NCBI GenBank assembly: GCA_021129445.1
Contig: JAJOLG010000033.1
Coordinates: forward strand, 1-7,132
DNA length: 7,132 nucleotides
Source: Candidatus Altimarinota bacterium
GTDB taxonomy: Bacteria; Patescibacteriota; Gracilibacteria; GCA-2401425; JAJOLG01
Direction of reading: 5' to 3'
The position numbers and the translations under genes are program-made. The notes under the pieces were generated by a model that saw only the letters and a program-made list of their open reading frames with translations, was not told the DNA's origin and searched no databases. This document shows, piece after piece, positions 2,613-7,128 of the stretch (its first letter is position 1; the number at the start of each line of letters is the position of its first letter).

Positions 2613-3074
2613 TTATCTCTTAACCCAAGTAGAAGCTTTTCTCGCTCTTTTTAATCAAGGTTTTTGTCTTTCTTTTGTTCTATCATCTCTTGTAATTTGA
2701 TCTTCCTTTTTCAAGATAGATTTTAATGATTCATCAGAAACTAAAAGCGCTCTTGCAATTCAGTGTCTCACTGCATCAGCCTGTGAAAACATTCATCATC
2801 ATTTCACTTTAACTGTAAAATTAAAATCTTTTACTTTTCAAGTTTGAACAAGTGAAGATTTAATTAATTCAAGTAAATGAACAACTGATTGAAAATATTT
2901 TTCAACTGATAATCAGTTTACAATAATTTCTCATTTTCATTTTTCATACATTCTAATTCTTGCAATTGAAGATTTTCTTTTTCAAGTTGCATTGTAATAT
3001 TTTCAAGAATACAAAGAATGCATATCTTTTGACTCTTTTCTGTCTACTATTTTTATTTTTTTAACTGTTTTCAT
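2613..3074 (-). CDS. rpsI: 30S ribosomal protein S9
   Basis: S9 is a component of the small-subunit head; its C-terminal tail reaches the P-site tRNA. With UGA as glycine the protein has 153 residues. The conserved blocks are YYNATGKRKSSAIRIR (26-41), TVKVKGGG ending at 94, QADAVRHGIARALL, TRDDR and the basic tail KPGLKRARKASTWVKR. All three glycines of KGGG, and those of RHG (105) and KPG (140), are TGA codons, which are the strongest recoding markers in the window. The ATG at 3074 lies 2 bases after the rplM stop, pointing to coupled translation of the usual L13-S9 pair. The alternative ATG at 3023 would give 136 residues, nearer the usual family length of about 130, so the first 17 residues are uncertain. 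It is the last gene before the terminator. Confidence 0.96.
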
Positions 3075-3076
3075 AA

Positions 3077-3505
3077 TTAAATATTTAGCATTTCTGGTTT
3101 TTGAGCTTCAAATTTGTGATCTGTTCAAGTAACAAGTTTTAATCTTAACATTATTCATTTTTTCAACTTATTATTTGGAAGCATTCACGCAACAGCATGT
3201 TCTAATGGGAAAGTTGGAATTTTTTCTAGTCTATCTTCAAGAGTAAATGTTTTTAAACCATCTTTTGCATATCTCGAATGTCTGTAGTATTTTTTATCTA
3301 ACATTTTATTTCATGTAACATGAAATTTATCAGCATTTTGTACTATAACATAATCTCAAGTATCAACATGAGGTGTAAAATCTGCTTTATTTTTTCATCT
3401 TAAAACTTTTGCAATTTCCACTGCAAGTTTTCATAGAGTTTTTCATTCAGCATTAACAATATACCATTTTCTATTTTCCGGTTTTTTAGCTACGAAAGTT
3501 TTCAT
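3077..3505 (-). CDS. rplM: 50S ribosomal protein L13
   Basis: L13 is an early-assembly protein of the large subunit that binds 23S rRNA. The 142-residue product has the usual family length and blocks: KWYIVNAEGKTLGKLAVEIA (13-32), GDYVIVQNADKFHVTGNK (50-67), KKYYRHSRY, the L13 signature HAVAGMLPNNKL (103-114) and the ending FEAQKPEMLNI. Gly107 in the signature and Gly65 are TGA codons; Trp14 is TGG, which rules out UGA as tryptophan. The start is 21 bases after the rplQ stop, and the stop is 2 bases before rpsI. The usual 'HSGYPGG' loop reads HSRYAKDG here, a mild divergence. No Shine-Dalgarno sequence is visible before the ATG. Confidence 0.96.
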
Positions 3506-3526
3506 CTATTTTTATATATTAATGTT

Positions 3527-3880
3527 CTAAACTAATTGTAATACAACTTTTTCTGCACCATCTCATGGCCTTGCTCAAAGTTTAACAATTCTTGTAAATC
3601 AAGACTGTCTATCTTTATATTTATCATGTAATTCATCCAAAATAATTTTAGATGCATCTTCTCAATAAAGATGTTTTTTAAGATAACGAATAGCATTCAT
3701 TTTATCTTTTCATTTTGTTCTTGCAATCATTTTATCAACAGCAGAAGCAGTTACCTTTGCTTTTACTTTTGTTGTTTCTATTGTTCAAGATACAATTAAA
3801 GCAGTAGATAAAGATCTAATTAAAGCTTTTAATTGAGCTGAATTCCTATTAATTCTTGTATTTTTAACTTGGTGTCTCAT
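3527..3880 (-). CDS. rplQ: 50S ribosomal protein L17
   Basis: L17 is a large-subunit protein near the peptide exit tunnel and normally follows rpoA, as here. The 117-residue product opens MRHQVKNTRINRNSAQLKAL, the family's N-terminal block, then has IETTKVKAK (34-42). It ends RPGDGAEKVVLQLV, matching the 'RxGDxAxxxxxELV' end of the family. Gly106 (the GD glycine) is TGA. It is the only gene here that ends in TAG, which shows that both UAG and UAA still terminate. The 61-base gap from rpoA includes a TATAAT hexamer at 3891-3896 on the minus strand but no convincing -35 element, so an internal promoter is only possible. Confidence 0.95.
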
Positions 3881-3941
3881 AATTTTTATATTATACTAAC
3901 TGTATAAAGTAATTTATAAATAAATTTTTTACAAACTTATC

Positions 3942-4907
3942 TTAATCTCAAAGTAATTTCATTCATTTTTTTGCAAGTGCATCTGAAACTTCATCCATTG
4001 CTTTCTTTCAGAAACCTCTAAATGTTCATAGTTTTGCTCTTGAACATTTTAATAATTCTTCAACTGATCAAATCTCTGCATTCAATAAAGCATTTAACGA
4101 TCTTGGTGATAAATTAAGAATTTCAATTGGAGTATAAATTTCTTTTTGTTCTTCTTGTTCTACCATTCAAGTTCTAGAAAAATCACTTACAAAATCTTCT
4201 TCAATAATCTCTTCTTCTTCATTAAATAAAGCAAAATATGAATTTAAAATATTTGAAGAAAATTTTAATGCATCAATTGATTCCATCGATCAATCAGTTT
4301 CTATTTCAATTTTCAATTCATCAAGGTTCATCATATCTCATACCCTGATTTGATCTACATCATATTTAACTTTTTGAACTGGAGAAAAGTTTGCATCAAT
4401 AAATATAAATTCAGATAAATCATCGTTTGTATTATTTTTTCTTTCTTTAACTGGAACATATCAAACTCATTTTTCAACCAATAAAGTCATTTCAAAATCT
4501 GTATTAGATGAAATTTCTGTAATTACAAAATCTTTATTTAAAACTTCAATATTTGCAGATGTTTCTATATCTCATGCAGTTATTGTTCAAGCTCATTTTT
4601 TCTTTATTGTCACAAATTCAGCATCTTTTCAAGATTTTTTAAATCTAACAAGTTTTAAATTTAAAATAATATCTAAAAGTGAATCTTTTATTCAATCAAC
4701 TGTTGAATAATCATTAGTAGCTCATTTTAATTTTACTGCAGTAATAGCAACTCAAGGAAGTGATGATAACAAAACTCTTCTTAAAGAATTTCACAATGTC
4801 ATTCAATATCAATTTGGAAGTGGTGAAAGTGTAAACAAAGAAGTATTATTTCATAAGTCTTCTGTATTAAACTTTGGTTTACCTATTGTTTCTTGAATTA
4901 TATGCAT
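3942..4907 (-). CDS. rpoA: DNA-directed RNA polymerase subunit alpha
   Basis: Alpha dimerises to scaffold RNA polymerase assembly; its C-terminal domain contacts UP-element DNA and activators. The 321-residue protein has the N-terminal domain block SPLPNGYGMTLGNSLRRVLL (28-47), GATNDYSTVDGIKDSLLDII, the insert strand GAGTITAGDIE, VEKGVGYVP and VDQIRVGD. A C-terminal domain follows (about 258-321: LNLSPRSLNALLNAEIGSVE, GFGKKAMDEV). Arg269 and Asn272 fall where E. coli alpha has the UP-element contacts Arg265 and Asn268. Glycines of GYG, LGN, LPG and VDG are TGA codons. The linker (229-257) is strongly acidic. The ATG at 4907 fits the family N-terminus, lies 48 bases after rpsD and has no Shine-Dalgarno sequence. 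The order rpsK-rpsD-rpoA-rplQ is the standard alpha operon. Confidence 0.97.
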
Positions 4908-4955
4908 AATAAAAGTGGTTTAATGTTAGTAAATTATATTTAATTTTATAATTTA

Positions 4956-5546
4956 TTATCTTGAATAATACTCAATTATTAAATGTGTTTTAATAGATTG
5001 TTCCATTTCATCAGCATTTGGAATTTCTACAATTTCTACAGATTTTCATTTATTATCTCATTTTAACCATTTAAACATTGGTTTAATATCTAAATTTTCA
5101 AATAAAGATGATTTTTTTAATTTATCTCTTAAAGATAAAACATCTCATTTTTTTACTTGAATTGATGGAATTGTAATTTTTCTTCAATTTAATAAAAAAT
5201 TTCAATGTGAAATCATTTGTCTAGCTTGTGTTCTAGAAACAGCTAATCAAGCTCTATAAATAATATTATCAACTCTTAACTCAATTTGTCTAATAAGCTC
5301 TTCTCATGTAATATTTGCAGATTTAACTGCTTTTTTATAATACATTTTGAATTGTTTTTCAGAAAGTCAAAAAGTATGTCTTGCAATTTGTTTTTCTCTT
5401 AATTGCATTCAATATTCTGATCTTTTTTTGAAAAACTTATTTTTTCAAGCTCTTTTTGCTATTATATTGTCAATCTTTGGAAGTCAAAATACATTAACTC
5501 ATAAAGATCTTGAAAGTTTTGCCTTTGAACCAAGAAATCTTGCCAT
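4956..5546 (-). CDS. rpsD: 30S ribosomal protein S4
   Basis: S4 is a primary 16S rRNA-binding protein that nucleates assembly of the small-subunit body; in many bacteria it also represses its own operon. The 196-residue product has the N-terminal GSKAKLSRSLGVNVFG segment and REKQIARHTFGLSEKQFKMY (50-69). The S4 RNA-binding domain reads RVDNIIYRAGLAVSRTQARQ (91-110), HGNFLLNGRKITIPS and VKKGD, and the protein ends HLIIEYYSR. At least 13 glycines are TGA codons, including those of RAG, SHG, LNG and KKG. The N-terminus lacks the four-cysteine zinc motif found in some S4 proteins. The start at 5546 lies 12 bases after the rpsK stop. The plus-strand open frame at 5347-5562 is only its antisense shadow. 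Confidence 0.97.
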
Positions 5547-5558
5547 ATTTTTATATTA

Positions 5559-5942
5559 TTAAATTCTTCTTACTCATTTTTGTCTACAACCATTATGAGG
5601 AATTCATGTAACATCAATTATTCAATTAAGTTCAAGTCATCATAAAATTAATCATCTAATTGCTTGCTCTCTTCATGGTCATATTCATTTTACATATACC
5701 ATTGCATCTTCAAATCAAAATGCTTTTGCTTTTTCCATTGCATTTTGTGCTGCAACTTGTCAAGCATAAGGAGTTGATTGCCTTGCTCATTTAAATCAAG
5801 AAGCTCAAGCTGTTGACCAAGTAATAACATCTCATTTTTTATCAGTAATTGTTACAATTGTATTATTGTAAGATGCATAAATATACACTCTTCAAGAACG
5901 AATATTTTTCTTTACTCTTTTTTTAGTATTTTTAATTCACAT
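5559..5942 (-). CDS. rpsK: 30S ribosomal protein S11
   Basis: S11 lines the small-subunit platform near the mRNA exit and the E site. The 127-residue product has RSGRVYIYASYNNTIVTITD (15-34), VITWSTAGASGFKGARQSTP (39-58), GQVAAQNAMEKA, VYVKGIGPGREQAIRGL and the family ending DVTGIPHNGCRQKGVRRI. TGA encodes glycine in SAG-like turns and in both glycines of GPGRE, and is even the second codon (ATG TGA). Trp42 is TGG. Gly113 replaces the proline common in 'DVTPIPHNGC'. Two TAA codons in a row end the gene (5556-5561), a tight double stop. It follows rpsM by 18 bases. Confidence 0.97.
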
Positions 5943-5960
5943 ATGTATTTTTTAAAAATA

Positions 5961-6338
5961 TTATTTTTTCTTTCAAGCTATTGCAACTCATCTTCTTCAA
6001 GATTTTTTCTTACGAGTTTTTGCATTAGTTTTAGTGTTTTGTCATCTAACAGGTAGTCACATTTTGTGTCTTCTTCATCTGTAAGATCAAATTTGTTGAA
6101 GTCTTTGAATATCCAAAGCTACAGATCTCTTTATATCAGATTCTGTATCAACTTTATCAAGTTCTCATCTGATTTTATCTAAATCAGCTTCACTTAACTC
6201 TTTAACTCTTAATTCTGGATTAACTTTAGTAGTTTCTAAAATTTTTGCAGATGTAGTTTTTCAAACTCACATAATATATGTAAGTGAAAATAAAACTTTT
6301 TTATTATCCGGTATATTTACTCAAGCTATACGAGCCAT
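5961..6338 (-). CDS. rpsM: 30S ribosomal protein S13
   Basis: S13 sits at the top of the small-subunit head, contacts 16S rRNA and the P-site tRNA, and forms bridges to the large subunit. The 125-residue product opens MARIAGVNIPDNKKVLFSLT, then YIMGVGKTTSAKIL (helix-two-turn-helix segment). The C-terminal block reads GSYRGRRHKMGLPVRGQNTK (84-103), followed by the usual RGQ-NTKTNAKTRK tail and a basic end AGKKK. The glycines of IAG, MGVG, YRG, MGLP and VRGQ are TGA. It starts 23 bases after rpmJ and precedes rpsK, the conserved order. No Shine-Dalgarno sequence precedes the ATG. Confidence 0.97.
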
Positions 6339-6361
6339 AATATATAAATATTAAATATTAA

Positions 6362-6475
6362 TTAGATTTGTCTTTGTTTGTGCTTTTTAGTTGCACAAAT
6401 AACTCTAACAACTCATTTTCTTTTTATCACTTTGCATTTTGGGCAAATTTTTTTTACTGATGCTCTTACTTTCAT
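6362..6475 (-). CDS. rpmJ: 50S ribosomal protein L36
   Basis: L36 is the smallest large-subunit protein, a zinc-ribbon that packs against 23S rRNA. The 37-residue product is MKVRASVKKICPKCKVIKRK followed by GVVRVICATKKHKQRQI. It keeps the full zinc set Cys11, Cys14, Cys27 and His32, so it is the zinc-binding type. Gly21 is TGA. Length and start match the family exactly. It lies 23 bases before rpsM and 133 bases after infA; that spacer is about 95 percent A+T, with seven G or C bases by my count. Confidence 0.97.
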
Positions 6476-6608
6476 AATTTTCTGATTAGTAATTTGAAAA
6501 TTTATTTTATTAAAAAAATTTTTTATTATCTAAATTTTTTTAAAATTATTTTTTTATTTTATAAAAATTTTATTTATACAATAAAATTTTTAAATAACTA
6601 AATTTTTT

Positions 6609-6896
6609 TTATTCTGTTAAAAAATCTTGTAAATCTTGATCATCTTTTAATTTTTGATCATTCCATCATCTAAATCTAGTGCTTATCCTTCATTTATCTA
6701 AACTATATGGAGAAATTTCAACTTTTACCAAATCTCATAATAAGATTTTTATGTAATGCATTCTCATTTTTCAATTAATTTGACATAAAATTTCTAGTCA
6801 TTCAACTGCTCATTTTAAAACTTTAACTTTAAAAGATGCATTTCATAAACATTCTATAACCTCTCAAAGTACAATAATTGAATCGCTTTTTGCCAT
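6609..6896 (-). CDS. infA: Translation initiation factor IF-1
   Basis: IF-1 is an OB-fold protein that binds the 30S A site and helps IF-2 and IF-3 select the start codon. The 95-residue product shows the family core in order: VLGEVIECLGNASFKVKVL (9-27), CQINGKMRMHYIKILLGDLV (38-57), KVEISPYSLDKGRISTRFR (58-76). Glycines of LGE, LGN, NGK, LGD and KGR are TGA codons. Most IF-1 proteins have about 72 residues and end near 'RITYRxK'. This one continues with GWNDQKLKDDQDLQDFLTE (77-95), an acidic extension. The ATG at 6896 gives the standard MAKSDSI N-terminus. It is the first protein gene after the 5S rRNA, 85 bases downstream. Confidence 0.95.

Positions 6897-6932: not shown

Positions 6933-7128
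<196 letters not shown>

Follow-up and report, generated by a model that had tools for sequence, protein, structure and literature searches.

The stretch of DNA considered here (the window, 7,132 bp at its full length) lies on contig 42 (C42) of the bacterial genome G000, has a guanine-plus-cytosine (GC) content of 18–28% in sliding windows, and carries on its minus strand a run of ribosomal protein, RNA polymerase and initiation factor genes in which UGA is read as glycine. Under the standard code (table 11), the longest open frame in the window is of 71 amino acids, and the only two open reading frames (ORFs) of at least 60 amino acids are both antisense to the real genes, on the plus strand. 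When table 25 is applied, the minus strand resolves into infA, rpmJ, rpsM, rpsK, rpsD, rpoA, rplQ, rplM and rpsI, followed by genes of secreted proteins. The UGA-glycine code (NCBI table 25) is itself already known, reportedly from work by Campbell and by Rinke in 2013; what is new here is the known reassignment in a new lineage, where it apparently arose independently.

The original prediction, made from the letters of the window, had held that nine conserved genes are intact only when TGA is sense, and table 11 indeed leaves no ORF of at least 60 amino acids in any of them. The check that it had proposed, the comparison of the table-25 translations with their Pfam families, gave nine matches out of nine, each protein to its own family and above the cut-off. 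In the direction of reading, all on the minus strand, these are infA (IF-1, 6609–6896, 8 in-frame TGA; PF01176, 1.2e-18), rpmJ (L36, 6362–6475, whose sole glycine is a TGA; PF00444, 1.7e-17), rpsM (S13, 5961–6338, 11 TGA; PF00416, 4.5e-30), rpsK (S11, 5559–5942, 17 TGA; PF00411, 1.9e-38), rpsD (S4, 4956–5546, 12 TGA; PF00163 and PF01479), rpoA (3942–4907, 21 TGA; PF01000, PF01193 and PF03118), rplQ (L17, 3527–3880, 6 TGA and a TAG end; PF01196, 6e-23), rplM (L13, 3077–3505, 8 TGA; PF00572, 3.8e-38) and rpsI (S9, 2613–3158, 12 TGA; PF00380, 5e-36). The longest frame of S9 overlaps L13 by 82 bp, and its true start is probably an internal methionine at about position 3074, just after the stop of L13, rather than at 3158.

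The meaning of the codon was read from eleven alignments (the nine window genes together with rpoB and rpoC from contig C27), in which standard-code relatives alone served as the yardstick. In the columns that hold a TGA and are conserved at 80% or more, the conserved residue is glycine in 172 of 180 cases, the remainder being scattered, and where a column is at least 90% glycine it is occupied 155 times by TGA and 8 times by GGN; all the conserved glycine motifs at which the prediction had placed TGA are present. Of 13 conserved columns with a TGG, 12 are tryptophan; AGA, AGG and CGT align on arginine. In eleven frames of the window there are 164 TGA and 11 GGN, so that TGA makes up 94% of the glycine codons, along with 9 TGG and neither CGA nor CGG. 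The window genes terminate in TAA or TAG, the conserved proteins stop where they are expected to, and the long table-25 frames of 20 sampled contigs end 148 times in TAA and 19 times in TAG, a count in which, by the nature of that reading, TGA could not appear as a terminator. A tryptophan meaning, as in the mycoplasma-type code 4, would likewise keep the frames open, but its probability is negligible, given that TGA falls on glycine in those 172 of 180 conserved cases and that no conserved tryptophan column holds a TGA; the alignments rule it out, as the prediction had maintained. Since TGA occupies the glycine columns and TGG those of tryptophan, UGA is glycine, and not tryptophan, in the window and genome-wide, a result that is strongly supported. 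It also reaches beyond positions 2613–6896, to which the claim had first been attached, because three ORFs of secreted-protein type at 3–2430 equally need TGA as sense.

The assembly of G000 comprises 672,893 bp in 77 contigs at about 25% GC, with an estimated completeness of 94.8%, and was sampled in stretches (L-numbers) from 34 contigs, amounting to 461 kb with the window included. TGA accounts for 79–95% of the glycine codons in 14 contigs (620 per 10,000 codons) and for 78–91% in 20 further contigs with one exception; overall, it supplies 78–95% in 33 of the 34, and UGA, at about 84% of glycine codons, is the dominant glycine codon of the genome. The exception is contig C21 (L279, 12,623 bp), with lipoprotein-like genes in the standard code and TGA at 3% of glycine codons, which is most likely a contaminant of the bin. 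The presence in the bin of at least one such contaminant lends something to the idea that the contig of the window could also be a stray from another organism, whose code would then be uninformative on the lineage of the genome. We regard this as very improbable, as the same rate of TGA is found in all but one of the sampled contigs, and C42 yields the same sister whether its ribosomal genes are analysed by themselves or combined with rpoB and rpoC of contig C27.

The position of this genome was approached through its RpoA and through trees. For comparison, family f12 is labelled Absconditabacteria-like and families f15, f22 and f24 Gracilibacteria-like, labels that we infer from code and tree position. 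When the RpoA of the window was used as the query against 242 genomes of the class, its best matches, 53–60% identical, came from standard-code genomes of Peregrinibacteria type, whereas identity was 45–53% to the UGA-glycine families f15 and f22 and 31–36% to f12. Among named genomes, the best 80 matches belong almost entirely to records of Peregrinibacteria, Peribacteria and other Patescibacteria, and no match was found in viral contigs. In code, G000 is unlike the lineages of the Peregrinibacteria side, as 626 marker genes from 80 named relatives contain 7,369 GGN and not a single in-frame TGA.

The trees join the window to Candidatus Peregrinibacteria bacterium NORP126 (G001), the sole other genome compared from its order, with a support of 99 for the nine markers in 61 genomes, of 100/99 in a careful search with 40 genomes, and of 100/100 for eleven proteins in 27 genomes (3,287 columns). 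In this last tree the pair is nested with f3 and f16, two families of standard code, at 99/98, and the UGA label has to change at least twice. NORP126 is the closest relative compared and has the gene set around rpoA in common with G000; unlike G000, it uses the standard code, with no in-frame TGA in its nine marker genes, is of 1.3 Mb, and has 37% GC at the rpoA locus. When the window was forced together with all UGA-glycine genomes, the cost with eleven markers was 64 log units (approximately unbiased, AU, test, p=0.018), and it rose to 74 log units once the long f12 branch was removed (AU p=0.004). The host, a genome of reduced size, thus falls on the Peregrinibacteria side of its class, and the identity with Absconditabacteria or Gracilibacteria that the original prediction had implied, by naming these as the known holders of the code, is not supported, given a sister with the standard code and the rejection of a single origin.

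From these two results it follows that an independent origin is the best reading. It is therefore highly probable, in our judgment, that G000 belongs to a lineage on the Peregrinibacteria side in which UGA became the dominant glycine codon, with UGG for tryptophan and UAA and UAG as stops, through a reassignment separate from that of Absconditabacteria and Gracilibacteria (BD1-5). The likeness to code 25 of Absconditabacteria (SR1) and Gracilibacteria (class JAEDAM01) is close, as UGA is glycine, UGG tryptophan, UAA and UAG stops and the GC content low in both cases; in contrast to these, G000 sits among Peregrinibacteria of standard code, and its UGA load is the most extreme among the genomes compared, with 95 of about 100 glycine codons in the nine window markers as against 0–75 TGA per genome in the sampled UGA-glycine families. 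Reports of 2026 confine the reassignment to JAEDAM01 (PMC13092985; PMC13293708), a single origin is cited in PMC13293708, and no report of it in Peregrinibacteria was found in the open-licence literature.

Several observations weigh against this independent origin. With nine markers, the union with all UGA-glycine genomes costs 19 log units and is not rejected (AU p=0.179), and rpoB and rpoC were added to the marker set after this test had given no significance; the placement is based on RNA polymerase, ribosomal proteins and IF-1; the branch of the window is itself long (0.61); and the lineage is known from one genome, with one other genome of its order. The apparent use of CGG for tryptophan, which is taken up below and which G000 and Absconditabacteria have in common, could hint at common descent or at the transfer of a tRNA gene. 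Finally, a tRNA-Gly(UCA) was not found in the G000 sample, either by covariance search (E 0.001 and 10) or by ARAGORN with and without introns.

The most direct expression of these doubts would be that G000 evolves fast, belongs to the known UGA-glycine group and has been misplaced by an artefact of the tree, in which case one origin would suffice. The non-significant test on nine markers is compatible with it, as are the meaning of UGA, the low GC content and the apparent tryptophan CGG shared with Absconditabacteria (PMC8629427); the sister, however, is a genome of standard code and 37% GC at 100/100, the single origin fails both AU tests mentioned above (p=0.018 and 0.004), and RpoA lies nearer to Peregrinibacteria than to f15, f22 or f12. 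Furthermore, the window shares its AT-richness with the f15 genomes but not with its sister at the same locus, and a bias towards AT would be expected to draw the window to AT-rich UGA clades, not to repel it, so that the placement runs against the expected artefact. For these reasons we consider a misplaced member of the known group quite unlikely.

If the independent origin is true, its consequences would go beyond this genome. Until now the assignment of UGA to glycine has been regarded as having happened once, in one clade of bacteria (PMC13293708, PMC13092985), and a second origin beside relatives of standard code would mean that it is repeatable; G000 and NORP126 would form a comparison pair for codon capture, the loss of release factor 2 (RF2) and tRNA change; and taxonomy alone would be insufficient to assign the code of a Patescibacteria genome. 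In genomes of this kind, almost all genes are overlooked or wrongly translated by standard gene callers.

The use of CGG suggests that the code of G000 may contain a second REASSIGNMENT, from arginine to tryptophan. In the first part of the genome to be sampled, about 6 codons in 10,000 are CGG, and these often stand at conserved tryptophan positions, as in LeuRS (SRQRY[CGG]GEP, L208:11337-13829), LigA (SPR[CGG]AVAYKFP, L218:6367-7644), Elp3 (ETRPD[CGG]I, L278:3211-4983) and, twice, in a lamin-tail protein (EIQ[CGG]MGT and LNG[CGG]V, L214:12848-13945); in alignments with PDB entries, it stands opposite tryptophan in LeuRS, PcrA/UvrD and LigA of E. coli. When CGG was scored as tryptophan minus arginine, the difference in bits was +7.0 for LeuRS, +6.5 for the lamin-tail domain (LTD), +6.4 for LigA and +6.1 for Elp3, then +2.8 for ComEC, +1.2 for PilD, +1.0 for Der and +0.3 for M23, and on the other side −0.5 for DnaG, −0.6 for UvrD, −1.3 for AlaRS, −2.2 for YkuD and −2.4 for DnaE. 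The net is about +24 bits over 13 proteins, with four at +6 to +7 each, and the counter-evidence is small, its largest item being DnaE, where arginine fits better by 2.4 bits. As these proteins were chosen partly for their informative context, and the better of two libraries was taken for Elp3, Der and DnaE, the sum is indicative and not a formal likelihood. A tRNA with a CCG anticodon on contig C5 has A1-U72 and G73 of tryptophan type, with an unusual D-arm that prevents A20 from being judged. For CGA, a tryptophan meaning is unsupported by the profile scores (MurF-like −3.4, RecG −0.6 and Mfd +1.0, few cases), and the codon leans towards arginine.

In Absconditabacteria both CGA and CGG have been reassigned to tryptophan (Shulgina and Eddy 2021, PMC8629427), and the parallel would therefore be only partial, since CGG falls on tryptophan in both whereas CGA does not look tryptophan-like in G000. 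We are somewhat inclined to think that this Peregrinibacteria lineage independently evolved both UGA as glycine and CGG as tryptophan, with CGA still arginine, and so repeated the rare pair of Absconditabacteria. If both arose independently, change in the bacterial code would take a predictable path, driven by AT content.

As to the mechanism, analogy with Absconditabacteria would have UGA read by a tRNA-Gly(UCA) and RF2 gone, the two points that the original prediction had proposed to check in the genome. The most probable route is that mutation pressure towards AT replaced UGA by UAA as a stop; RF2 would then have been lost, a tRNA-Gly would have gained the UCA anticodon, and the same pressure would have converted GGN codons to UGA until the latter dominated. 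For G000, the analysis shows what UGA means, that it is used in this way across the genome and that the lineage falls among relatives of standard code, whereas the disappearance of RF2, the tRNA-Gly(UCA) and the sequence in which these events took place are what we infer. Besides the searches already mentioned, this tRNA was absent from the 26 tRNAs found in G000 and from two DNA-pattern scans, and searches of the sample with NCBIfam, Pfam and phmmer found neither RF2 nor release factor 1 (RF1); NORP126, in contrast, has RF1 and a second homologue in the score range of RF2. Despite the completeness score, the tRNAs for Met, Glu, Leu-UAA and Arg-UCU were not found either, and AUG, GAA, UUA and AGA are common codons in G000. 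Since RF1, needed for UAA and UAG, and these indispensable tRNAs are also unfound, the absences of tRNA-Gly(UCA) and RF2 are unusable as evidence. In six UGA-glycine genomes, RF1 contains TGA and there is no full-length match in the RF2 range.

Two tRNAs of G000 have a CCA anticodon (L005:1589-1664 and L023:1498-1572), one of them tryptophan-like (G1-U72, G73) and the other with an odd C1-G72 acceptor end and A73. As readers of UGA they were discarded, for their anticodon stems have five pairs and they lack U73, unlike the glycine tRNA of G000.

The tRNA-Gly(UCA) that makes the code possible could also have come in by horizontal transfer, with an Absconditabacteria phage as one possible source, so that the code spread in this way into the Peregrinibacteria lineage. 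One such phage encodes a tRNA-Gly(TCA) (PMC13059738), and the tRNA-Gly(UCA) carried by f22 genomes, with G1-C72, C2-G71 and U73, is a conceivable donor type; on the other hand, G000 yielded no tRNA of this kind, and we hold such a transfer to be unlikely. Certain f22 genomes (L067, L069, L068 and L051) have the glycine-type UCA tRNA, yet only 0–1 in-frame TGA in the nine markers; these possibly represent an early or reversed stage in the use of UGA as glycine at higher GC.

The rest of the window, all on the minus strand, is occupied by genes of secreted type and by a ribosomal RNA. A protein with cohesin and dockerin domains (979–2028, 39 in-frame TGA; PF00963 and PF00404) is separated, through a TAA in frame at 2071–2073, from an N-terminal part with a signal-peptide-like start (2071–2430, 9 TGA); the two are apparently one frame (979–2430), and the TAA looks like a nonsense mutation, a sequencing error or the mark of a pseudogene. 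Another ORF resembling a secreted protein (3–992, 21 TGA) runs off the window and has no match in Pfam. Upstream of the gene run lies a 5S rRNA (6983–7098; RF00001 of Rfam, 93.2 bits).

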